Assembly (NCBI GenBank): GCA_017435485.1
Contig: JAFSEY010000002.1
Span: forward strand, 1 to 38,365
Direction: 5' to 3'
Origin: Bacilli bacterium
Lineage (GTDB): Bacteria > Bacillota_I > Bacilli_A > RF39 > UBA660
Length of the DNA stretch: 38,365 nt
A program made the position numbers and the translations under genes. Shown here piece by piece: positions 14,834 through 28,083 of the stretch (the stretch's first letter is position 1; every line of letters begins with the position of its first letter). Under the pieces are notes generated by a model. The model ran no database searches and was not told the origin of the DNA. It was given only the letters and a program-made list of their open reading frames with translations.

Positions 14834-14861
14834 ATTATGAAATTCTAGCCTTTAATCAATT
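14817..14861. terminator. Convergent 18-bp hairpin between two gene ends
   Basis: AATTGATTAAAGACTAGA (14817-14834) pairs with its complement at 14844-14861 with one A-C mismatch and a 9-base loop. It covers the stop codons of the HipA-like gene (+) and the HAD gene (-). It has no long T-run, so it may act as a weak bidirectional terminator or as a mutual 3' end stabiliser. Confidence 0.6.
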
Positions 14862-15313
14862 ATAGATGAATCTTGATAAACATCAACTTCTGGTAAATTA
14901 TTCTTAATAAAATGAAGTATTTCATTGTCATCATCTATTAAAATTATTTTGTTGGTTGGAGTAAGTTTAGACTTTAAAAAATTTAGTTTTAATTCTTTTG
15001 ATTTGGAGTTTGGATATTTTTCTTTGGAAATGATATAACACTTTTCTTGATTTATAAATTCGGTATATTTTCTAAGCCAGTCTTTTTTTATTAATATGTC
15101 ATCATTTTTTTTGCAAATTGATAAAATATTAATAGAAACATTTTTTAATTTAGTTAACTCATATATTATATTAATAGTTGTTTTAACTGGTCTTTTATTT
15201 TTAAAATCATAAGGATTATAAATACTATAATCAGCTAAGACACCATCCATATCAACATATATTTCTATTTGTTTATTTTTATATTTCTTTTTTACTTCAT
15301 TTATAAAATACAT
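14852..15313 (-). CDS. HAD-superfamily phosphatase (5'-nucleotidase-like)
   Basis: A small HAD hydrolase of 153 residues. Motif I is VDMDGVLADY (Asp21 nucleophile, Asp23 acid/base), motif II is the LSICKK region, and motif IV is IILIDDDNEIL with its acidic pair. The compact cap and the DMDGVLADY form resemble 5'(3')-deoxyribonucleotidases and their relatives. It probably removes phosphate from a nucleotide or a small metabolite. It starts 9 bases downstream of the P-loop kinase gene, after a GGAGG site, so the two should be one operon. An adjacent nucleotide kinase and NrtR-like regulator suggest a nucleotide or NAD salvage role, by inference. Confidence 0.85.
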   Translation of the reverse strand: MYFINEVKKKYKNKQIEIYVDMDGVLADYSIYNPYDFKNKRPVKTTINIIYELTKLKNVSINILSICKKNDDILIKKDWLRKYTEFINQEKCYIISKEKYPNSKSKELKLNFLKSKLTPTNKIILIDDDNEILHFIKNNLPEVDVYQDSSIID

Positions 15314-15322
15314 ACTTTCCTC

Positions 15323-16093
15323 CTAATACAATGCTTTTATTCTTTTTAGTACATCGTTAGCAATTATTATTGAAGCATCCATTCTTTCCTTATCAGAGGT
15401 ATCTATTAACATCGATTCTTCTTTTTCGATACCGATAATTTGATACATTCGCATAAGGGCTTCATTATATCTTTCTACATTTTCTGCATTCATAGTAGTT
15501 CTTGGTTCAATGGATAAAGAATTTATGTAATCTCTAATCATAGATATATTACTTCTTGTATAAAGTGCATAAAACAACTCAATATAATTTCTTTTTTCTT
15601 GTAATAGTTTTAAAAATTCGAAATATCGGCTTTTATCAATCATTCCCATATGATAATACATATCATACCATATAAAAGGGTCGATATTACCTCGATCACA
15701 AATTAAAATATCATTTTCTTCAATTTTACTTTTGATAGATTGGGTTCCAACTTCATATTGTCTTTCAACAAAACCGATTCGATCTTGTAATAAAATCTTT
15801 TTTTCTTCTCTATTTTTTAAAGTTGCATATATCAAACCAGCCGGTTCTTCTAAAACAGAAGTTCTTAAATCACATTTTTTAAAAAACTCTGCTAAATTTT
15901 CAACACAAGTTGTTTTTCCTGCTCTTGGCGTCCCACTTATGGTAATAACAATTGGCTTATTTAAAGATCCATATTTCGCTTGTAATTCTCTTATTTCATT
16001 TTTCTTGGCATCCAATATTTTTAGTTGATGATATAAATTTCGATTTCCTTCAAAATATTTTTGCATTTCTTTATCATAATTTAAGTTTTTCAT
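15323..16093 (-). CDS. P-loop nucleoside or nucleotide kinase
   Basis: The Walker A motif is SGTPRAGKTT (about 53-62) after a helical lead of about 45 residues. An ILICDRGNIDPFIWY segment (about 127-141) is the D-R-x-x-x-D motif used by deoxynucleoside kinases, thymidylate kinases and NadR-like ribosylnicotinamide kinases. A lid region rich in Arg follows (YTRSNISMIRDY, then EPRTTMNAENVERYNEALMRM). The 256 residues fit this fold. The exact substrate is open: a deoxynucleoside or nicotinamide riboside are both possible. It is upstream of the HAD gene and downstream of the NrtR-like regulator, all on the minus strand. AGAAGGA precedes the ATG. Confidence 0.85.
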   Translation of the reverse strand: MKNLNYDKEMQKYFEGNRNLYHQLKILDAKKNEIRELQAKYGSLNKPIVITISGTPRAGKTTCVENLAEFFKKCDLRTSVLEEPAGLIYATLKNREEKKILLQDRIGFVERQYEVGTQSIKSKIEENDILICDRGNIDPFIWYDMYYHMGMIDKSRYFEFLKLLQEKRNYIELFYALYTRSNISMIRDYINSLSIEPRTTMNAENVERYNEALMRMYQIIGIEKEESMLIDTSDKERMDASIIIANDVLKRIKALY

Positions 16094-16141
16094 TTTATCC
16101 TTCTTTCTTTTGCGTATTTTTTACACTTTATGATTTTTATA

Positions 16142-16166
16142 AAAAATGTATTTAGAATACATTTTT
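16142..16166. repeat. AT-rich inverted repeat at the end of the NrtR-like gene
   Basis: Perfect 11-bp arms AAAAATGTATT/AATACATTTTT with a TAG centre cover the last codons and stop of the NrtR-like gene. On the minus strand a T-run follows, so it may be an intrinsic terminator. Its core TGTATT..AATACA also resembles the palindrome in the regulator's promoter, so an operator for the kinase-HAD genes is an alternative. Confidence 0.6.
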
Positions 16167-16826
16167 GCTTATTTTACTTTTTTTAAATTTATAAACTTTA
16201 GCGGGTTTGTTACCTTTAAAATTCCTTACTTTATTAGTATCTTGAATTAAATCAATACTAAGCAATTTTTTTCTAAAGTTTCTTCGATCAAATTTCTTAT
16301 CTAAAATAGATTCATACACCCTTTGAATTTCAGGAATGGTAAATCCACTTGGAAATAACGCTTTAAGAATATCCGTATTAACTATATTCTCTTGTAGGGA
16401 TTTAAGCGCCTCTTTAACTATCTCGTTGTGATCGAATGCAAGTTTAGGGATTTTATCAATTGCAAACCAATCGGCATTTGATGTCTTAAGCGTTTCTTTC
16501 AAAAAAGAAACCTTTTCACTATCAATAATACCAATATAAGTAATTGCAATCATTCTTTTAACGGGAGAACGATCTTTTTTACCAAACACCCCAGAAAAAT
16601 ACGTATCAATATTGACTATTCCTGTTTTTTCAAACATTTCTCTTTTTACTCCTTCGAGTAAATCTTCATTATTATATAAAGCTCCACCAACTAAAGACCA
16701 CATGTCCTTAAATGGACTATTTTTTCTTTTTACCAATAAAACTTTTGTCACGCCATCTATAACGGTAAATATCGAAGTTATGACATGAATACCTTGATCT
16801 TTGTACAAAGGATTTTTCACTTGCAT
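16152..16826 (-). CDS. NrtR-like NUDIX-winged helix transcription regulator
   Basis: Residues about 10-140 form a NUDIX domain with the box GGALYNNEDLLEGVKREMFEKTGI (given here as 24 residues in two halves: GGALYNNEDLLE and GVKREMFEKTGI). The catalytic R-E-x-x-E-E-x-G-U is R-E-M-F-E-K-T-G-I, so one metal-binding Glu is Lys. A dead NUDIX box is typical of NrtR sensors, which bind ADP-ribose-type ligands and control NAD genes. The C-terminal part (about 150-215) is a winged helix: LFPSGFTIPEIQRVYESI, then FDRRNFRKKLLSIDLI. It lies directly upstream of the P-loop kinase and HAD genes, and its promoter holds a palindrome, which suggests autoregulation. Confidence 0.85.
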   Translation of the reverse strand: MQVKNPLYKDQGIHVITSIFTVIDGVTKVLLVKRKNSPFKDMWSLVGGALYNNEDLLEGVKREMFEKTGIVNIDTYFSGVFGKKDRSPVKRMIAITYIGIIDSEKVSFLKETLKTSNADWFAIDKIPKLAFDHNEIVKEALKSLQENIVNTDILKALFPSGFTIPEIQRVYESILDKKFDRRNFRKKLLSIDLIQDTNKVRNFKGNKPAKVYKFKKSKISKNVF

Positions 16827-16878: not shown

Positions 16879-16905
16879 CATAAATTTTATAGAAGTGTAA
16901 ATTGT

Positions 16906-16933
16906 TTCGTTTTAAACATTTCGTTTTAAACAT
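16906..16933. repeat. Tandem 14-bp direct repeat
   Basis: TTCGTTTTAAACAT occurs twice head to tail, with no gap. It lies between the NrtR-like promoter and the 902-residue protein gene. The direct repeat and the internal TTTAAA look like a possible regulator-binding site, but no regulator can be named. Confidence 0.8.
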
Positions 16934-17052: not shown

Positions 17053-19761
17053 ATGTTATTAACAAATCCTATGTATTCTGGGATTGATCTTTATTTAACA
17101 GATTTAGAAAAGCATTTTGAATCCGGTTGCCGTTTTGAATATGATTATAGAAGCTATGATAAAAATATAGATGATGTTATAAGTTATATTTGTTTTGAAA
17201 TCAAATCTTTATTGAAATCTCCCCAAAATATTATAATAAAAAGTATAAAATATGATGGTCAATTAAAATTTGAATATCATAAAGCGATGAATGAAATATA
17301 TATATCTGAACTTCCTTTTATAGATGACGGAAAAAACAAGTTTTATATTTTTACCCACGATATTGCACTCATATTAAGTAAAGCAGTTGCTAATATAGTG
17401 GATTTAAAGTCAGTAAAAATAAAATTTATTAATGATTTTTTTCTGAGTACAATTGATAGAAAAACGCTAGAAATTTTGCCCACTGTTAGTAATACGTATA
17501 ATTGGAATATGTTAGTTAGTATCCGCGAAGGAATCAAAAAGGAAATTGAAAAAATTAAAGTTGAAAGTATAAGATATAAAGAACAACAGGAAAGAAAATA
17601 TAAAGCCGAAGAACGTGCTTTAATTAAAAGAAGAAAAGTACAAGGATTAGACCCTGAAGCTTTTGAAAATTACGATTTATTTGAACAAGCATTAACAGAA
17701 CATATTCTTGCAAAAAACACCAAAAGAAAAGCTAACTTACAACCAAAACTCGAAAGTTGTATTCGTAAATACAAAGAATTACTAAAATCATGCGATCTTG
17801 ACTTAATTAATAGTAACTCCCCTTATTATTTCAATAACAATTCTAAAGGGCATACAGAAGATTATGAAAAATTAGATATTAATGAAAAATTAGTTATTTG
17901 GTATGACTTTGACTTAAATCACGATAAAGGATTACTTAATGTGATTTTAAACATCAAGTATGATTTATATAATAATCGATCTAACAGCGAAAATGGTATC
18001 ATTCATAAAGATAGTTATGTTATGCGTGATGAACTTAATGCAATAAACTATACTCATCCAGCATTATCAAAAAACGACGTTAAAGAATTAGAAGTATTTA
18101 TTTCGTTGTTATATAATATAAAAAATTTATATAATAAAATTTATCACGTGTGTCCAGCTATCGATAAAGCTCCATTAGACCATATTTATAGTTTTTCTAA
18201 ACATAGCTCTGCTATTCCTTGGTCTAAAATTTTAAAATTCCCATTTTGGTTAAGCATTTATTATGACAGCTACCCAAACATAATTAAAGAAACGTTTGGT
18301 CTTTTCATGATAAAACCTGGAGTTAATAAAATAGATTATTCTAAAATTATGTGTTTCTCTACTGACAAAGCTAAATACGTACACTTTACTGACGAGTTTG
18401 TTAATAGGCGTATCATAACAATACCAAGAACTCTCCCTTATGATGAAATCTGTAAGTTAGTAAATTTTTCTATTGAAAATTCTTATCACCTTAATTTTAT
18501 ATGTGAAGATATTACTAATTATATAATTATTAAACGCATATTAATTTTAAAAGAATTAGACTCTTTTTATTCTTTAGATAAAAAACAAAAAGATGGAGTT
18601 GGAAAAAAAATAAAATGGTTCGTTAATTTAGACCCTAACTATTATAATGATTATATGGTTACTATAGCAAACAATAAAACCTATTGGCATAAATTTGATT
18701 TTACATCCGACTATAAATATAGAAGAAAAGATCCTTTAGATATTAAAGCTATTGTAGAAGAATGTGTAAACAGGTATTGTAAGAGTAAAACAGAGTTTAA
18801 TTTAAAAAGAAGCTTAATAGAAAAGATTTTATTAGGGGATATTATAGAAGCAGATAAAGAGCTTGTTGAGAGAAAACCAGAACAATTTAAAAATATTTAT
18901 GAAGGATTTAAATTAGAGAAAAATTTCAGAGAAACTTTGAGAAACTTTTATGGATTAGGTAATCAGGGTTTTATTGGACTTGAAAAATATCGTTTACATG
19001 AAATTTTAACTGAATATATTGTTGATAATAATCATAATCAATTATATTTAGGAACTACAAATATATTTAAAAATTATTCTTTATTAGAAGCAGGACTATT
19101 TGCAAAAGAACTATCATCTGAATGGGACTGGAATCCAGCTGATTTTGAAATTAGCAATTTTGATAATACAGAGTTTGAAATAGAAGTTAATTATTCAGAA
19201 CAAAAAAAAGAAGATAATACTGAAAATATCTTTCCAGAACAAGATAATAGTTTTAAATATCGAGAAAAACTTAATAATAATCATTTATTATCCTTTAAAT
19301 GCATACTGGAATTTTTAAAAAGAATATGTATAAACAAATTACTTGATGAGAAAATTTTCATTGATAGTTTAAATCAAAATAATGCATTTATAGTAAGTAA
19401 ATGTTCTTATGGTTTATATTCTATAGAATTAATCAAAGCCGACAATCATAGTTTAATTCAAGAAGATCACTATTTCCGTATTTATTTTAAGCTTACTCCA
19501 TGGCAAAATACATATCGTATATGTTTAATCGCAGCAACTAGATATCCAGATTTAGATAAAGAGACATTATTTGAATCGACCTTAAAAATAAATGCCAACA
19601 CAGTAGTTTTTCCAAAAAAGCTTTCAGATGACATTTTAAATAGAATTTTTGAAAAATTTGATAACTGTATTAAAGCTAATAAAATTGAAAGTCCTAAATT
19701 AACCAAAAAGAAACCAGTTAATGAAATTAAGATTAACCCTATAGATGATTTACCTTTTTAA
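17053..19761 (+). CDS. Large unknown protein ending in an SSB-like tip
   Basis: I do not recognise the 902-residue body. It has no signal peptide or membrane helix. A basic coiled-coil stretch lies at about 155-200 (KEIEKIKVESIRYKEQQERK and on). The middle is rich in Tyr, Asp and Asn, with no visible nuclease, helicase or ATPase motif. The tail is Lys-rich and ends INPIDDLPF. The final DDLPF is the peptide that bacterial SSB uses to recruit RecQ, PriA, RecG, RecJ and others, suggesting contact with the replication-repair set. The gene stands alone, with repeats in its leader, and has uvrB downstream after 143 bases. A defence or repair role is only inference. Confidence 0.85.
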   Translation: MLLTNPMYSGIDLYLTDLEKHFESGCRFEYDYRSYDKNIDDVISYICFEIKSLLKSPQNIIIKSIKYDGQLKFEYHKAMNEIYISELPFIDDGKNKFYIFTHDIALILSKAVANIVDLKSVKIKFINDFFLSTIDRKTLEILPTVSNTYNWNMLVSIREGIKKEIEKIKVESIRYKEQQERKYKAEERALIKRRKVQGLDPEAFENYDLFEQALTEHILAKNTKRKANLQPKLESCIRKYKELLKSCDLDLINSNSPYYFNNNSKGHTEDYEKLDINEKLVIWYDFDLNHDKGLLNVILNIKYDLYNNRSNSENGIIHKDSYVMRDELNAINYTHPALSKNDVKELEVFISLLYNIKNLYNKIYHVCPAIDKAPLDHIYSFSKHSSAIPWSKILKFPFWLSIYYDSYPNIIKETFGLFMIKPGVNKIDYSKIMCFSTDKAKYVHFTDEFVNRRIITIPRTLPYDEICKLVNFSIENSYHLNFICEDITNYIIIKRILILKELDSFYSLDKKQKDGVGKKIKWFVNLDPNYYNDYMVTIANNKTYWHKFDFTSDYKYRRKDPLDIKAIVEECVNRYCKSKTEFNLKRSLIEKILLGDIIEADKELVERKPEQFKNIYEGFKLEKNFRETLRNFYGLGNQGFIGLEKYRLHEILTEYIVDNNHNQLYLGTTNIFKNYSLLEAGLFAKELSSEWDWNPADFEISNFDNTEFEIEVNYSEQKKEDNTENIFPEQDNSFKYREKLNNNHLLSFKCILEFLKRICINKLLDEKIFIDSLNQNNAFIVSKCSYGLYSIELIKADNHSLIQEDHYFRIYFKLTPWQNTYRICLIAATRYPDLDKETLFESTLKINANTVVFPKKLSDDILNRIFEKFDNCIKANKIESPKLTKKKPVNEIKINPIDDLPF

Positions 19762-19904: not shown

Positions 19905-21851
19905 ATGTTTAAATTACACTCAAACTATAAACCTAGTGGAGATCAACCACAAGCTATTCAAAAGTTAGTTGATGGCATTAATTCTGGAAAAAAAGAACAA
20001 GTATTACTTGGAGCAACAGGAACTGGTAAAACATTTACTATAGCTAACGTAATCAAAGAAGTAAATAAACCTACCCTAGTACTTGCGCACAATAAAACTT
20101 TAGCAGGACAACTTTATGCTGAATTTAAAGAATTATTCCCAGAAAATCATGTTGAATATTTTGTGTCATATTACGATTATTATCAACCGGAAGCATATGT
20201 ACCTAGCAGTGATACATTTATAGAAAAAGATTCATCTATAAACGATGAAATTGATGAACTACGTCATGCTGCTACTAGCGCTTTAATTAATAATCGGGAT
20301 GTAATTGTAGTTGCTTCTGTATCATGTATATATGGTATTGGTGAAAAAGAAGAATATGAAAAAAATATGTTAACTTTAAATTTAAATGATAAAGTTAATC
20401 GAAATGATATTTTAAATAAATTAATTGATATGACTTATGAAAGAAATGAATTAGATTTTCATCGTGGTACATTTAGAACTAAAGGTGATACAATCGATAT
20501 AATTCCAGCAAGTGAACGTTCACAGGGTATTAGAATAGAATTATTTGGCGATGTTGTTGATAGATTGTGTACATTCGACCCTTTAACTGGAGCAATTATT
20601 AGTAACAAAAAATCAATTTCCATTTTTCCAGCCAGTCACTATGTAACAAGTCCCGAAAAAATGGTAGTGGCCATAGAAAGAATAGAAAACGAATTAAAAG
20701 AACGTTTAAAGTTTTTTGAAGATAATGGTAAATATATTGAAGCCCAACGAATTAAAGAAAGAACCAATTATGATATAGAAATGTTAAAAGAAACTGGATT
20801 TTGTAGTGGTGTAGAAAATTATTCTTGTCATTTAGCATTACGTGATCCTAGTGAAACACCTACTTGTTTAATCGATTTTTTTCCAGAAGATTTTTTACTT
20901 GTTGTGGACGAATCTCATGTTACCTTACCGCAAGTAAGAGGAATGTTTAATGGTGATAGAATGCGTAAACAGACTTTAGTCGATTACGGTTTTAGACTTC
21001 CTAGTGCTTTAGGAAATAGACCATTACAATTTGCTGAATTTGAACAAAAAATTAATCAAGCAATCTTTGTATCGGCAACTCCTGGCGATTACGAATTGGC
21101 AAAAGTACATAACGAAGTTGTTGATCAAATAATCAGACCTACTGGACTATTAGATCCAACTATTGAAATAAAACCAACTGAAGGACAAATTGATGATATT
21201 ATTGAACAAATAAATATTAGGAAAGCGAAAAACGAACGTGTTTTAATTACTACTCTAACAATTAGAATGAGCGAAGAATTAACTAATTATTTAAAAGAAA
21301 TGAATTTAAAAGTTGCTTACTTGCATAATGAGATTAAAACTCTAGAGCGATTAAAAATAATAAGAGAATTAAGATTAGGAGAATATGATGTTGTCGTAGG
21401 AATTAATCTTCTTCGTGAAGGAATAGATATACCTGAAGTCAGTTTAATATGTATTTTAGATGCTGATAAACAAGGTTTCTTGCGAAGTGACCGAAGTTTA
21501 ATTCAAACAATTGGTAGATGTGCTAGAAATAGTAATGGTCATGTTATTATGTATGCAGATACTATAAGTGAAGCTATGAATAAAGCTATAACGGAAACTA
21601 ACAGAAGAAGATCAATTCAAGAAGAATATAATAAAGAGCACAATATAACTCCTAAGACAATTATTAAAGAAATTAAAGAAGTTGTTAGTAATGAAGTTGA
21701 AACAAAATCAACTAGTAAAAAAATCACAAAAAAAGAATCACGAGAAATTATGGCGACTATTGAAGAAGAAATGAAATTAGCAGCAAAGAATTTAGATTTT
21801 GAGCGCGCAATGGAATTACGTGATATACTATTAGAGATGAAAAGTAAGTAG
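19905..21851 (+). CDS. uvrB: Excinuclease ABC subunit B
   Basis: UvrB is the damage-verifying helicase-like subunit of nucleotide excision repair. The 648-residue protein has Walker A ([10 protein letters not shown], about residue 38), the beta-hairpin region [18 protein letters not shown], the Walker B-type [15 protein letters not shown], helicase motif V/VI ([16 protein letters not shown] and QTIGRCARN), and the C-terminal UVR motif ([21 protein letters not shown]) that binds UvrC. AGAGGTG precedes the ATG. uvrA is not in the window. An SDR gene follows 15 bases later, probably on the same transcript. Confidence 0.98.
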
Positions 21852-22671: not shown

Positions 22672-23029
22672 GGGGCAGTAATGGTTTCGACATGTATTAC
22701 TAAATATGACTGCAAGTAGTTGGAGAACTTTAAACTCACAATTAAAATTAAATGACAAAGCTGAATATAGCTTTGCTCCAGCATTTGCATAGTCTAGAAA
22801 GACTTTAGGAGCTCTTTTACTTACTTTGCTTACGTAGTAAGATAAAAGATCATATAGTAAGCTATATTAACTTAAATTCTTGGGTTAAGTTAACGAATTT
22901 TTACTAAGATAGTTATTTAATAGGTATGTTAAGAGCCGGTTAGATAATGAAATACAAATCTTACTAAACTTGTAGATGTTGTATGATAGGATATATTGGA
23001 CAGGAGTTCAATTCTCCTCTGCTCCACCA
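22672..23029 (+). ncRNA. ssrA: Transfer-messenger RNA (tmRNA)
   Basis: tmRNA rescues stalled ribosomes by adding a degradation tag. The 5' end GGGGCAG pairs with CTGCTCC before the encoded CCA, forming the tRNA-like acceptor. The 5' part includes GGTTTCGAC, and the 3' T arm is GGAGTTCAATTCTCC. The tag frame ends NDKAEYSFAPAFA and then TAG (22754-22792). The resume codon is uncertain: the frame is open upstream through QLKL, so the tag may be up to 17 residues. The tag ends in AFA rather than ALAA, as in many Mollicute relatives. The length is 358 bases, and a terminator follows. Confidence 0.97.
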
Positions 23030-23293: not shown

Positions 23294-23767
23294 ATGGATC
23301 AAATTAAGATTGGAAAATTTATTGCTGAATGTAGAAATATCAAAAAAATAACTCAAGATGAATTAGCACAAAAACTAAATATTACAGATAAAGCAGTTAG
23401 TAAATGGGAAAACGGAAGATGTATGCCAGATATACAATTACTAGAACCATTATGTAATGAATTAGATATTACAATATACGATTTAATTCAAGGTAAAAAA
23501 TTGACAGTTGAAGAACAAAAAGAATGTTCTAATAAAAATGTGTTTTCAATATTAACAACAAAAAAAGAATTAGAAAATATGCAAATATTAACAGAACTTT
23601 TAATTTTTAGCGCACTAATAATAACCGGAATATTAACAAAGTTATTAGCTATTACTGTTCTCCAAAGGATTGTAACTATTACTGCAGGAATATTTATATT
23701 TGGATTTGGTATCTTTTTAAGAATTAAATTAAGAAATATTAAAAATAAAATAATAGATAATAATTAA
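23294..23767 (+). CDS. XRE-family regulator with two membrane helices
   Basis: Residues about 7-62 are a helix-turn-helix of the XRE/Cro type (AECRNIKKITQDELAQKLNITDKAVSKWENGRCMPDIQLLEPLCNELDI in pieces, with the recognition helix DKAVSKWENG). The C-terminal half has two hydrophobic helices (about 97-118 and 122-142) and a basic end. This architecture, a soluble DNA-binding head on a membrane anchor, is common in Firmicutes, and the target genes are usually nearby. The neighbouring Cys-rich gene is convergent, so no obvious target is adjacent. The AAGGAGGG site makes the start clear. Confidence 0.9.
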   Translation: MDQIKIGKFIAECRNIKKITQDELAQKLNITDKAVSKWENGRCMPDIQLLEPLCNELDITIYDLIQGKKLTVEEQKECSNKNVFSILTTKKELENMQILTELLIFSALIITGILTKLLAITVLQRIVTITAGIFIFGFGIFLRIKLRNIKNKIIDNN

Positions 23768-23878
23768 TTTAATTTAATTTTACCAAAATTTTGATATATT
23801 TATATTAGTAATTAATGGATATAAATTAAAGACTAGTGGTTGTTATACTTCCACCAAAAGGTCATCAATAATTAAAAT

Positions 23879-23906
23879 AAACTCGAGTTTTAAATAGCTC
23901 GAGTTT
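23879..23906. terminator. Hairpin after the XRE gene
   Basis: Perfect 9-bp arms AAACTCGAG/CTCGAGTTT surround a 10-base loop. It lies between the convergent XRE and Cys-rich genes and may end transcripts from both. A nearby GTGG/CCAC stem at 23836-23854 may belong to a short RNA. Confidence 0.55.
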
Positions 23907-23932
23907 TAAATAACTTTTTTACAATTCGACAT

Positions 23933-24515
23933 TTATTTTTTAATAGGAAATTTATAAAACTTTCTCAAAAGCTCAATTACTTCTTCCTTATCTTTAAAAA
24001 ATGATATAGAAATAATGTAAATATGGTATTTTTTTTATAGGAAATTTAATCTTCTTTTGAAATCTTAGGTAAGGGCAAACAAATAATTTACAACTAATAC
24101 TTTTTATTTTACATGTTTTTAGCTTTTTATCAAATTTATCACAGAGAATTCTAGTAGTAGTTCCAGTGCAACAACTATAAACTTGTTTGTCTTTAGGTTT
24201 ATTTCGATTACATTCACACATATCATTTTTAAACCCACATAAATTTTTATTTCTAAATTCATTATCTAAATAGTCACAGGAGATATCATAGACAATATTT
24301 AACCTCTCATATTTAGTTGATGCATTGAGTATTTTTAAAATATTGATTAATACTTCTATTTCTTCTGGATATTTTTTTTCTTCTCCAGAATACTCTTCAT
24401 TATTATATGAAATATATATTTTATAACCTATTAATCTTTGTAATTTTAACCAATTAATTTTTTTATAAAATTTATTAATATTATTTTTTTCAACTATTAC
24501 TATCTTCTTTTTCAT
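23933..24515 (-). pseudogene. Cys-rich protein, frameshifted in an A8 tract
   Basis: The uninterrupted frame (23994-24515, 173 aa) has a Cys pattern in its C-terminal half: SCDYL, CGFKNDMCECNRNK, YSCCTG, RILCDKF, LKTCKIKSISCKLFVCPYL. About eleven Cys suggest metal or zinc binding. After FPIKK the frame passes through eight A (24031-24038) and soon stops. Moving one frame there restores KYHIYIISISFFKDKEEVIELL and RKFYKFPIKK to a stop at 23933-23935, giving 193 residues with a plausible C-terminus. Causes could be a real indel, slippage on A8, or an assembly error. Similar Cys-rich Firmicute proteins of unknown role, with a CKLF.C motif, exist. An AGGTGTATT site precedes the ATG. Confidence 0.75.
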
Positions 24516-24667
24516 AATACACCTATATTTATTAAGTATAGTATATAATGTTTGTTTTAAATTTACAATTGTTATAAAATTTTCCTTAAAGTTTTTCAGT
24601 GTGTAAATTTAATGCTGTGTTATAATATATTTAACCTATAACTATATATTAAAAGGATAGTGAAAAA

Positions 24668-25168
24668 ATGATAACTTTAAATGAATATAAAACTTATTTA
24701 ATTAATTATTATGTACACGAAATAGATAATAACGATGATAAAAGATTATATAGAAAAGAATCATTAGAGAAACAATATAATGATGAAGATTTAACCAAAA
24801 TAATTAATGATACATATGACTTTATTAAAGAGGTTTTATGCTGCGATACAATAAATAGTGGTTATAGTATAGTTCCTTTAGAAGAAGATACTACCAGTTA
24901 TATTTCATTAAATTTAGTTGGTGGTTGGTTTGCAGATACTTTATTTACTGATTTAAAAGGCAAAATTATTAGTAGATATATTATGAAATATGTATTTGGT
25001 TCACGTTTTGATATAGAAGTTATAGATGAAGAGATAGAACGAGATAACGAGGATGATGACATCGTTAGCTTTTATCATAATTATTATTTGTATTTACGTG
25101 GTTTTCCTAAAAATATTGAAGAAATCAAAAAAAATATTTTTGGTAATTCAAAATTATTAACAAAATAA
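24668..25168 (+). CDS. Hypothetical acidic protein, 166 aa
   Basis: I do not recognise this protein. It is cytoplasmic by appearance and acidic, with a DNEDDD patch near residue 127 and mixed helix and strand. The central segment SYISLNLVGGWFADTLFTDLKGKIISRYIMKYVFG looks like a compact core; nothing marks a function. AAAAGGATAG precedes the ATG. It is followed after 58 bases by an SDR gene with a separate ribosome site, so the two might be co-expressed. Confidence 0.8.
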   Translation: MITLNEYKTYLINYYVHEIDNNDDKRLYRKESLEKQYNDEDLTKIINDTYDFIKEVLCCDTINSGYSIVPLEEDTTSYISLNLVGGWFADTLFTDLKGKIISRYIMKYVFGSRFDIEVIDEEIERDNEDDDIVSFYHNYYLYLRGFPKNIEEIKKNIFGNSKLLTK

Positions 25169-25226
25169 TTTTATGTATGATTCACCTATTTTTGTTTTAT
25201 GAATATTATAACTATGGTGATATGAA

Positions 25227-26171
25227 ATGGACTATAAGTTTTATTATTCTAATGAAAATGGTCAAGATGATTATGGTTTGAAAGATTTTACGGAAGATGG
25301 ATATAATTTAAAGTGTACAACTTTTAAAGTGAAATATCCGGAGCAAGAACAAGATGTTCAGCCAGGAATGGAATATTTAATGAATCCTCGCCCTATTTAT
25401 AACAATCCTTATTATAAAGCAAGCGGAAAATTAAAAGGAAAAGTTGCTATTATAACTGGTGGAGATTCCGGGATTGGTCGAGCTGTAGCAGTTGCATATA
25501 TTAAAGAAGGTGCAAAAGTTGTTATTGTTTATTTAAATGAACATAAAGATGCAAAAGAAACTAAGGAAGTAATAGATGCCTTAGGTGGCGAAAGTTTATT
25601 TATTGCTGGAGATCAAAAAGATCCTAGGTTTTGTGAATATGTTGTTGATCAAACAATGAAAAGATTTGGGAAGATTGATATATTAATTAACAATGCTGGA
25701 GTACAATATCAACAAAAAAGTTTATTAGATATATCTGATGAACAATTTGATGAAACTATGAAAACCAATGTTTATGGAATGTTCTATTTAACTAGAAGTG
25801 CTCTAAAATGTATGAAACCTGGTTCAAATATTATCAATCTTTCTTCAGTAACTACTTTTTATGGTGAACCAGAATTAATTGATTATGTTACTACAAAGGG
25901 AGCCATTGTTGGTTTTACAAGATCTTTAGCAACAAACTTAGCTGACAAAAATATTAGGGTTAATGCTGTAGCTCCTGGATACTTTTGGACGCCATTACAA
26001 CCAGCTTGTTGGGAAAAAGAAAAAATCCCTACTTTAGGAGCAGATGCACCTATGAAAAGAGCTGGAGAAACTTATGAAATTGCTCCCCTATTTGTTTACT
26101 TAGGGAGTGATGATGCTTCATATGTTACTGGACAAGTAATGCACATTAATGGAGGTTTAGTTAAAGGTTAA
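25227..26171 (+). CDS. SDR oxidoreductase, general stress protein 39-like
   Basis: A 314-residue SDR with an N-terminal extension of about 65 residues (PGMEYLMNPRPIYNNPYYKASGKLKGKVA in part), as in the YhdF/GSP39/YgaH-type family. The cofactor loop is GGDSGIGRAVAVAY, with LINNAGVQYQ, the active-site SSVTTFYGEPELIDYVTTKGA (Y-V-T-T-K), and NIRVNAVAPGYFWTPLQP. The ending GQVMHINGG is typical. It probably reduces or oxidises a small carbonyl or alcohol; these proteins are often general stress induced. The Arg of IRVN is encoded by AGG, supporting the standard code. GGTGAT precedes the ATG. Confidence 0.93.
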   Translation: MDYKFYYSNENGQDDYGLKDFTEDGYNLKCTTFKVKYPEQEQDVQPGMEYLMNPRPIYNNPYYKASGKLKGKVAIITGGDSGIGRAVAVAYIKEGAKVVIVYLNEHKDAKETKEVIDALGGESLFIAGDQKDPRFCEYVVDQTMKRFGKIDILINNAGVQYQQKSLLDISDEQFDETMKTNVYGMFYLTRSALKCMKPGSNIINLSSVTTFYGEPELIDYVTTKGAIVGFTRSLATNLADKNIRVNAVAPGYFWTPLQPACWEKEKIPTLGADAPMKRAGETYEIAPLFVYLGSDDASYVTGQVMHINGGLVKG

Positions 26172-26222
26172 AAAAATGCATAAAATATTTTTCTTGTACC
26201 ATTCTATTAATGGAGGAATATT

Positions 26223-26657
26223 ATGGAAAATGAAAAAGAAATAAATGTTTTAGATGAATTATCTAAAGGAGCTAGCATGGGTAAAGATGCTATTAAATTT
26301 ATCTTAGAAAAAGTAAAGGATAAAGGGTTAGAAAAGGAATTAAAAACCCAATATCAAAAATATGAAGAAATTGCTGAAAAAATCAAAGCAATATATCCTG
26401 AATACAGTGAAGATGAACCACATGAAACTAACATAGTTAACAAAGTAATGACTTGGTATGGAATTGAAATGAAGACTTTGTCAGATGATACATCTTCTAA
26501 ATTAGCTGAACTTGTTATGCAAGGTACTAATATGGGAATTATTGAAGGTAGAAGATTATTAAATCATAAACATACTAATCCAGAAATTAATAGTTTAGTT
26601 CAAGAATATGTTGATATGCAAGAGGATGCGGTTGAAGCATTAAAATCATTTTTATAA
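26223..26657 (+). CDS. Helical-bundle protein, ferritin-like fold likely
   Basis: A 144-residue, almost all-helical protein without signal peptide. The recurring segments ASMGKDAIKFILEKVKDKGL, KYEEIAEKIKAIYPEYSEDEPHETN, and GTNMGIIEGRRLLNHKHTNPEINSLVQEYVDMQEDAVEALKSFL suggest four long helices. Glu and His positions (PHET, KHTNPE, QEDA) could bind metal as in DUF2383/DUF305-like bundles, but this is a guess. Similar short proteins are widespread in Clostridia without known function. A GGAGG site and a terminator flank it; it is possibly co-expressed with the SDR 51 bases upstream. Confidence 0.85.
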   Translation: MENEKEINVLDELSKGASMGKDAIKFILEKVKDKGLEKELKTQYQKYEEIAEKIKAIYPEYSEDEPHETNIVNKVMTWYGIEMKTLSDDTSSKLAELVMQGTNMGIIEGRRLLNHKHTNPEINSLVQEYVDMQEDAVEALKSFL

Positions 26658-26683
26658 TAAGCTTTATAGCTTATTTTTTTATT
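26656..26683 (+). terminator. Terminator after the helical-bundle gene
   Basis: Stem AATAAGCT/AGCTTATT with a 4-base loop and a T7 run, overlapping the stop codon. Confidence 0.85.
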
Positions 26684-26715
26684 ATCTAAAATCACGAAAA
26701 AGCACGTGTACCTTA

Positions 26716-26745
26716 TTGACTACAGCGAAAGCTTGGTGATATAAT
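26716..26745 (+). promoter_or_regulatory. Promoter of the HTH-BRO pair
   Basis: TTGACT (26716-26721), an 18-base spacer and TATAAT (26740-26745) with TG two bases upstream (extended -10). It lies 17 bases before the ATG. A CACGTG palindrome at 26703-26708 is just upstream. Confidence 0.7.
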
Positions 26746-26762
26746 CTAGTTAGGTGATAAAC

Positions 26763-27017
26763 ATGAAAAAAATTAATAACGAAAAAAGTATTATTGAATT
26801 AGAATATAATCTTATTTGTGATTTTATAAAGTTACGTAACGAGTTAGGTTTAAGTCAACAAAAAATGGCTGAGGAATGCGGAGTCATAAGAGAAATGATA
26901 GCTGTAATAGAAAATCAAAAAAAGCATCCACAAATAAATACTCTAATTAAAATACTTGAACCGTTTGGATATACATTGTCTATTACTAAAATAAAGGAGG
27001 AAAATGATGAATTATAA
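26763..27017 (+). CDS. XRE-type helix-turn-helix protein
   Basis: An 84-residue, single-domain HTH protein: NLICDFIKLRNELGLSQQKMAEECGVIREMIAVIENQKKHPQINTLIKILEPFGYTL in shape, with the recognition helix around IREMIAVIENQ. The form resembles HipB/HigA-type antitoxin regulators. The ATG at 26763 is chosen because GGTGAT lies just upstream; the GTG nine bases earlier is inside that site. It overlaps the next gene by 14 bases, so both are translated from one mRNA. Confidence 0.88.
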   Translation: MKKINNEKSIIELEYNLICDFIKLRNELGLSQQKMAEECGVIREMIAVIENQKKHPQINTLIKILEPFGYTLSITKIKEENDEL

Positions 27018-27837
27018 ATTAGCTTTATTTGAAGAAAAACAGATAAGAAAAACTTGGAAAGATAAAAAATGGTACTTTAGTATTATAGATGTTGTTTATG
27101 CGCTAACAGATTCACTTGACCCTAAACAATACTTAAAAAAAATAAAATCTAGGGATATAGAAATACAAAATAACTGGGGTACAATTTGTACCCTACTTGA
27201 AATGGTTGCATTAGATGGGAAAAAAAGAAAAATTCAAATGGCTGATACGGAAGGAATTTTGCGTATTATCCAATCTATTCCATCACCTAAAGCTGAGCCT
27301 TTTAAAAGATGGCTTGCTAGAGTTGGTAGTGAACGAATTGAAGAAATAAATAATCCTGAGCTTGCTATGGATAGAATGAAACAGATTTATGAAAAGAAAG
27401 GCTATTCTAAATCTTGGATAGAGCAACGAGAAAGAGGTATAACAACAAGACATAATCTAACAGATGAATGGAAAGAACGTGGAGCTAATGAAGGAAGAGA
27501 CTATGCTATACTTACTAATGAAATATATAAATCTGGATTTGGATTAACTGCTAAAGAATATAAAAATATTAAGGGTATTCATGAAAGCCAAAATTTAAGA
27601 GATTCTATGACAAATATCGAGTTAGCTTTAACAAATCTTGGAGAAGCGGCAGCAGTAGAATTTCATAAAAAGAATAATAGTCAAGGACTAAATAATTTAA
27701 AAACTGATATGACAAAAGCTGGAAATGTATTAAATAAAGCAAAACAAGAAATTGAAAATGAATTGCAAAAACCTGTTGTTTCTTCGGAAAATTATATTGA
27801 TTTAACACAAAAAGAAGATTTATTAGATATAAAATAA
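27004..27837 (+). CDS. BRO-N/DinD-like protein
   Basis: The N-terminal BRO domain is clear: QIRKTWKDKKWYFSIIDVVYALTDSLDPKQYLKKIKSRD, as in phage antirepressors and E. coli DinD. The middle has the helical DinD-type core (RWLARVGSERIEEINNPELAMDRMKQIY, then the ERGITTRHNLTDEWKERG element). The end is a Glu/Lys-rich helix. The 277-residue length matches DinD (about 274). It may act as a DNA-binding partner of the preceding HTH; DinD is known to inhibit RecA filaments, but the role here is not shown. AAGGAGG precedes two adjacent ATG codons (27004, 27007). A terminator follows. Confidence 0.9.
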   Translation: MMNYKLALFEEKQIRKTWKDKKWYFSIIDVVYALTDSLDPKQYLKKIKSRDIEIQNNWGTICTLLEMVALDGKKRKIQMADTEGILRIIQSIPSPKAEPFKRWLARVGSERIEEINNPELAMDRMKQIYEKKGYSKSWIEQRERGITTRHNLTDEWKERGANEGRDYAILTNEIYKSGFGLTAKEYKNIKGIHESQNLRDSMTNIELALTNLGEAAAVEFHKKNNSQGLNNLKTDMTKAGNVLNKAKQEIENELQKPVVSSENYIDLTQKEDLLDIK

Positions 27838-27874
27838 AAAGACTATTAACTAATTTCTTTTGTCAACACTCTAT

Positions 27875-27898
27875 AATAAGCCTTGGCTTATTTTTTTT
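27875..27898 (+). terminator. Terminator of the HTH-BRO operon
   Basis: AATAAGCC/GGCTTATT, a two-base loop, then eight T. The stem is strong, beginning 38 bases after the stop. Confidence 0.85.
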
Positions 27899-27956
27899 AT
27901 TATTTATAAATTTGCTATAATAATATAAATAACTTACTTATATGGCAGTGATAAGA

Positions 27957-28083
27957 TGCTTAATATAAATAACGAAAAAGATGTTCCAGAAATGTTGAGA
28001 TATCATCGAACAAAAGATATGATTTATTTGATTTATGTCATATTCCTAACCAAAGATATGCAGGTATATCTGTATGGCACTAA
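27957..28083 (+). pseudogene. Possible decayed coding fragment
   Basis: An open stretch starting ATG at 27957 reads MLNINNEKDVPEMLRYHRTK, while the frame two bases later reads YDLFDLCHIPNQRYAGISVWH and stops at 28083. The second string has protein-like composition and a good Trp/Tyr/Pro balance, as though a frameshift joined the two. No ribosome site is evident. From 27838 to 28289 there is no intact gene; the stretch also holds the fragment at 28149. Confidence 0.3.

Follow-up and report, generated by a model that had tools for sequence, protein, structure and literature searches.

An orphan 107-kDa protein of small-genome Bacilli with an SSB-like DDLPF tip found in one lineage

Our study identified P0001, a large orphan protein whose C-terminal residues, NPIDDLPF, resemble the end of the SSB encoded in the same genome (ALSEDDLPF; G000:C13), and we consider, with a probability of about 0.5, that it is an accessory protein with an SSB-Ct-like docking peptide acquired in one lineage. 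SSB uses its last few residues to organise DNA repair and to recruit repair enzymes. If our reading is true, an unrelated natural 107-kDa protein with the SSB end would mean that the docking code can be borrowed, and P0001 would then serve as a genetic tool to find out which of the SSB partners are important in small-genome Bacilli. The tip aside, the core of P0001 constitutes an undescribed protein family without a recognised fold. The window, that is, the whole stretch of 38,365 nucleotides that was analysed, corresponds to contig 2 in the assembly of a Bacilli bacterium with a small genome (1.085 Mb, 94% complete). Table 1 includes the features of the protein and its full-length homologues from other genera.

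Table 1. Position in the window and main characteristics of P0001, its parts and its full-length homologues
Feature	Position	Strand	Length or residues	Characteristics and basis
P0001, orphan protein	17053..19761	+	902 aa, 107 kDa	lacks any strongly hydrophobic (membrane) segment
N-terminal alpha/beta domain, conserved	17053..17520	+	residues 1-156	model pLDDT 70.8, pTM 0.69; fold comparison not significant
Extended helical stretch, probably a coiled coil	17500..17790	+	about residues 150-246	conserved E164, E187, G198; suggested by a low-confidence model
Second conserved core block	18199..18849	+	about residues 383-599	alignment of six members
Lineage-specific C-terminal extension	18850..19758	+	residues 600-902	search of 243 genomes
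Basic linker preceding the tip (KANKIESPKLTKKKPVNEIKINPI)	19672..19743	+		sequence; charge comparison
SSB-Ct-like tip DDLPF and stop codon (GATGATTTACCTTTTTAA)	19744..19761	+		sequence; genome scan
Homologue G009			707 aa	ends RLKEEIE, tip absent
Homologue G288			691 aa	ends TKRNK, tip absent
Homologue G061			~785 aa	ends SLTLKW, tip absent
Homologue G135			~970 aa	ends SLKKRK, tip absent
Homologue G509			723 aa	ends ARERQF, tip absent

The open reading frame comprises exactly 902 codons from its ATG start, and its translation closes with KKKPVNEIKINPIDDLPF before the stop; the complete sequence runs from MLLTNPMYSG to NEIKINPIDDLPF and has a pI of 7.0. An initial annotation of this DNA had described a protein of 902 residues with no recognised domain, and our searches confirm this observation: profiles from Pfam, NCBIfam, PHROGs, PADLOC and PDB, compared with the whole protein, its pieces and the family alignment, gave nothing significant, and no relative was found among phage, plasmid and viral-contig records. 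The gene is flanked by a divergent NUDIX/NrtR-type regulator gene (16152-16826, minus strand) and by uvrB (19905-21851, plus strand). An operon link with uvrB was rejected because the gene upstream of uvrB varies among the relatives looked at. On the other side, the regulator is followed consecutively by an AAA_28 ATPase (NadR-like) and a weak PNKP-type HAD phosphatase (14852-16826, minus strand), a gene row that may form a cassette related to NAD or to nucleic-acid ends. Between the regulator and P0001, the intergenic DNA contains a perfect tandem repeat of TTTCGTTTTAAACAT (16905-16933), whose units share one base; the motif is absent elsewhere in the window, although two loose matches to it are not rare by chance in AT-rich DNA.

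The alignment of six members of the family contains 50 invariant columns, among them the polar clusters T101/D103, E164/E187, N481/C484/K494 and N525-x-D527-P-x-Y530 ... S552-x-Y554-x3-R558. The last of these clusters provides the signature of the second core block, N-x-D-P-x-Y ... S-x-Y-x-x-x-R, with N525, D527, P528, Y530, S552, Y554 and R558 invariant in all six. The full-length AlphaFold model, built from four sequences, had a mean pLDDT of 35, falling to 22 in the last block; such values would fit a disordered tip, but a model that is poor throughout says little about this. The separate model of residues 1-156 had no match at E <= 0.001 in Foldseek comparisons with PDB and viral models; GNAT-, NTF2- and RAD52-like folds were rejected for this domain, with E values of 0.02-1 and TM-scores below 0.4.

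Protein and profile queries across family, order and class samples showed that the P0001 family is rare: homologues occur in 7 of the 385 genomes of the order, all seven of them within one taxonomic family, and the named relatives were obtained from metagenomes of goat caecum and rabbit ('Lapin'). One genome of the same genus carries a 99% identical copy with the tip present (G001/L007), and five full-length homologues from four other genera are about 30% identical to P0001 over ~600 residues. A further copy, L009, is disrupted by a frame change. The initial annotation had proposed conservation of DDLPF among homologues as a test of its idea, and at the family level this expectation failed: the tip is absent from all five full-length homologues of the four other genera and present only in the two near-identical genomes of one genus. 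The last ~300 residues, searched in 243 genomes, had no match except in G001. Given its absence from relatives in four other genera, the tip seems to have been added recently rather than to belong to the core function of the family. Between the two tip-bearing genomes, the gene presents five synonymous and five non-synonymous differences, none of them within residues 601-902, and these are too few for selection on the tip itself to be measured. Across the whole gene, the rate ratio of about 0.23, obtained from two genomes and few changes, suggests that P0001 is a functional protein. The genes of the family are stand-alone, strongly diverged and patchy, and they lie at different chromosomal places. 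Three of the homologues (L017, L018 and L009) are located a few kb downstream of scpA/scpB or adjoining genes, with different cargo in between, which makes this a variable chromosomal site.

Special attention was given to how often such an end is found. The tip had initially been described as SSB-like (IDDLPF), and this reading stands: P0001 conforms to the D-D-[IL]-P-F pattern of SSB tips, and the host SSB itself ends in SEDDLPF. In the 1.085-Mb genome, the SSB and P0001 genes are exactly the two sites that encode DD[NTN]PF-stop (DD-x-P-F-stop, NTN being the third codon). A scan for DDxPF-stop in 145 genomes of the taxonomic family identified 52 sites, versus 8 for the backward control pattern. 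This set includes 44 SSBs (the host's among them), two phage-type proteins, three frames of 7-25 codons, one HTH + HRDC protein, and P0001 in two genomes; genuine genes with a DDxPF end in the sampled taxonomic family are SSBs in nearly every case. We rejected the idea that the tip arose through recombination with the 3' end of ssb, as the sole match consists of 21 bases around the tip (E 0.06) and is outscored by unrelated chance matches. The host has a second SSB-domain gene (G000:C6:19849-20151; L006), a 127-codon frame that ends in SSKKADE and has no DDLPF tip.

P0001 is not an SSB. The SSB domain (PF00436, the OB-fold that binds ssDNA) had no Pfam match in the protein, whole or in parts, and the two SSB genes of the host are located elsewhere. 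The DDLPF end is common to P0001 and the host SSB, but P0001 has two acids in its tip (IDD), whereas three (DDD or EDD) are found in most SSBs of the taxonomic family. The sequence preceding the tip differs as well. The initial annotation had noted a flexible Lys-rich linker, of which the Lys-rich composition is borne out; its charge, however, is the opposite of that of real SSB linkers, since residues -35 to -7 carry a net charge of +5 in P0001 versus a mean of -6.3 (range -8 to -2) in 43 SSBs, so that P0001 does not have the acidic disordered stretch that precedes an SSB tip. Two phage-type proteins of the same bacterial group (L042 and L101; phrog_18107 of unknown function, DUF669/PF05037) are likewise non-SSB and end in NDDLPF, but they are about 190-225 aa long, have Asn/Asp-rich tails and show no sequence similarity to P0001. 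Leaving P0001 and its copy aside, a single real gene of the sampled genomes that is neither SSB nor phage-type has this end; it encodes the HTH + HRDC protein of G061 (L061:6497-7333, minus strand; 278 aa; HRDC E = 8e-14), which ends in IKLDDLPF and is unrelated in sequence to P0001. The G061 genome also holds one of the P0001 homologues. A precedent for a borrowed tail is the PriB-SSBc chimera, in which an SSB tail attached to PriB in the laboratory leads to an SSB-type stimulation of PriA (PMC8509808); that chimera, however, is artificial, has the full SSB tail and was built from Gram-negative proteins.

In the reading that we favour, P0001 would be a member of a rare and patchy accessory family restricted to gut Bacilli with small genomes that form one family-level group, with the activity of the family probably carried by the ~600-aa core (the N-terminal alpha/beta domain, the helical stretch and the N-x-D-P-x-Y / S-x-Y-x-x-x-R block). 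In the host genus, the protein would have gained a C-terminal extension of ~300 aa ending in a short linear motif that copies the end of the host SSB. Docking would be the most likely use of this motif: the terminal Phe, with its free carboxylate, together with Pro, Leu and Asp, would enter the pocket in which one or several SSB partners receive the SSB-Ct, either placing P0001 at the ssDNA where these partners work or allowing it to compete with SSB for them. It is important to note that our data show the open reading frame, the tip with its rarity, its identity with the end of the host SSB and its confinement to one lineage, and that we infer the exposure of the tip, its docking, the choice of partner and the purpose alike. 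The solved complex of RecJ with an EDDLPF peptide shows order in DLPF alone, the last four residues, and a deep pocket holds the Phe (PMC4846377); therefore a tip with two acids could fit and may suffice. The initial annotation had envisaged that the tip intercepts or recruits RecG, PriA, RecJ or RecQ-type partners. The statistically SSB-like tip and the second non-SSB gene ending in DDLPF (in G061) speak for this proposal, but the partners that it named are not equally likely. The host genome does encode PriA; in S. aureus, however, PriA fails to bind the SSB-Ct peptide of the same species (PMC5531588), which makes PriA a doubtful first guess in Firmicutes, and RecJ-, RecO-, RecG- or primase-type pockets would be likelier. 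A more far-reaching version, with a new family, perhaps a new fold, and a tip mimic by which one lineage hijacks or recruits the SSB interactome, P0001 being a natural non-SSB hub or decoy at ssDNA, we regard as unlikely.

A serious competitor to docking is that a freely drifting C-terminal extension ends in DDLPF by chance and has no role connected with SSB, and that the family does something else. This is a real possibility, consistent with the basic linker, with the lack of the tip in every homologue of other genera and with family C-termini that vary wildly in length and sequence (proteins of 707, 691, ~785, ~970, 723 and 902 aa). Against it stand the predominance of SSBs among real genes with a DDLPF end and the expected numbers: based on the amino-acid composition of the window's 34 genes and an estimate of ~1,050 genes per genome, 0.0004 DDLPF-ending genes are expected per genome and 0.06 over ~145 genomes, whereas two independent non-SSB, non-phage genes were observed (P ~0.002 for at least two exact DDLPF ends, subject to a selection effect, because the earlier reader was free to pick any striking end in any window and the per-genome probability therefore understates the real chance). 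The tip of P0001 exceeds the expectation from composition, and luck is an unlikely source of it.

Two other explanations have less in their favour. Being rare, patchy, strongly diverged and stand-alone at varied chromosomal places, with three copies in the variable stretch downstream of scpAB-linked genes, the family might be an anti-phage or mobile-element system acting on ssDNA or replication, whose SSB tip would be the means by which one lineage senses or blocks the repair machinery; nevertheless, PADLOC assigned 0 families to five members, neither a PHROGs match nor a phage, plasmid or viral-contig relative of P0001 was found, and the neighbours are mostly housekeeping or unrelated genes, which leaves this idea improbable. 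Still more remote is that the C-terminal LPF is a ClpXP degron that sets the lifetime of P0001, a degron in some S. mutans strains being the one further documented role of this end that we found. ClpXP degrades GFP ending in LPF in S. mutans UA159, but LPF is not recognised in E. coli, two other streptococci and several S. mutans strains (PMC5143411). Moreover, the ClpX zinc-finger family (PF06689), detected in 10 of 14 control genomes, was not found in the 94%-complete host genome, which disfavours a degron.

Downstream of uvrB, the window contains a tmRNA (22672-23029, plus strand) with the tag DKAEYSFAPAFA, versus the usual -ALAA/-AVAA end, in this same genome with no detected ClpX zinc finger; the tag may direct its substrates to a different protease, for example Lon. 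The region beyond the tmRNA (23294-28000) encodes an HTH protein, a BRO-N protein and several orphans, perhaps what is left of an element that had integrated at the tmRNA.
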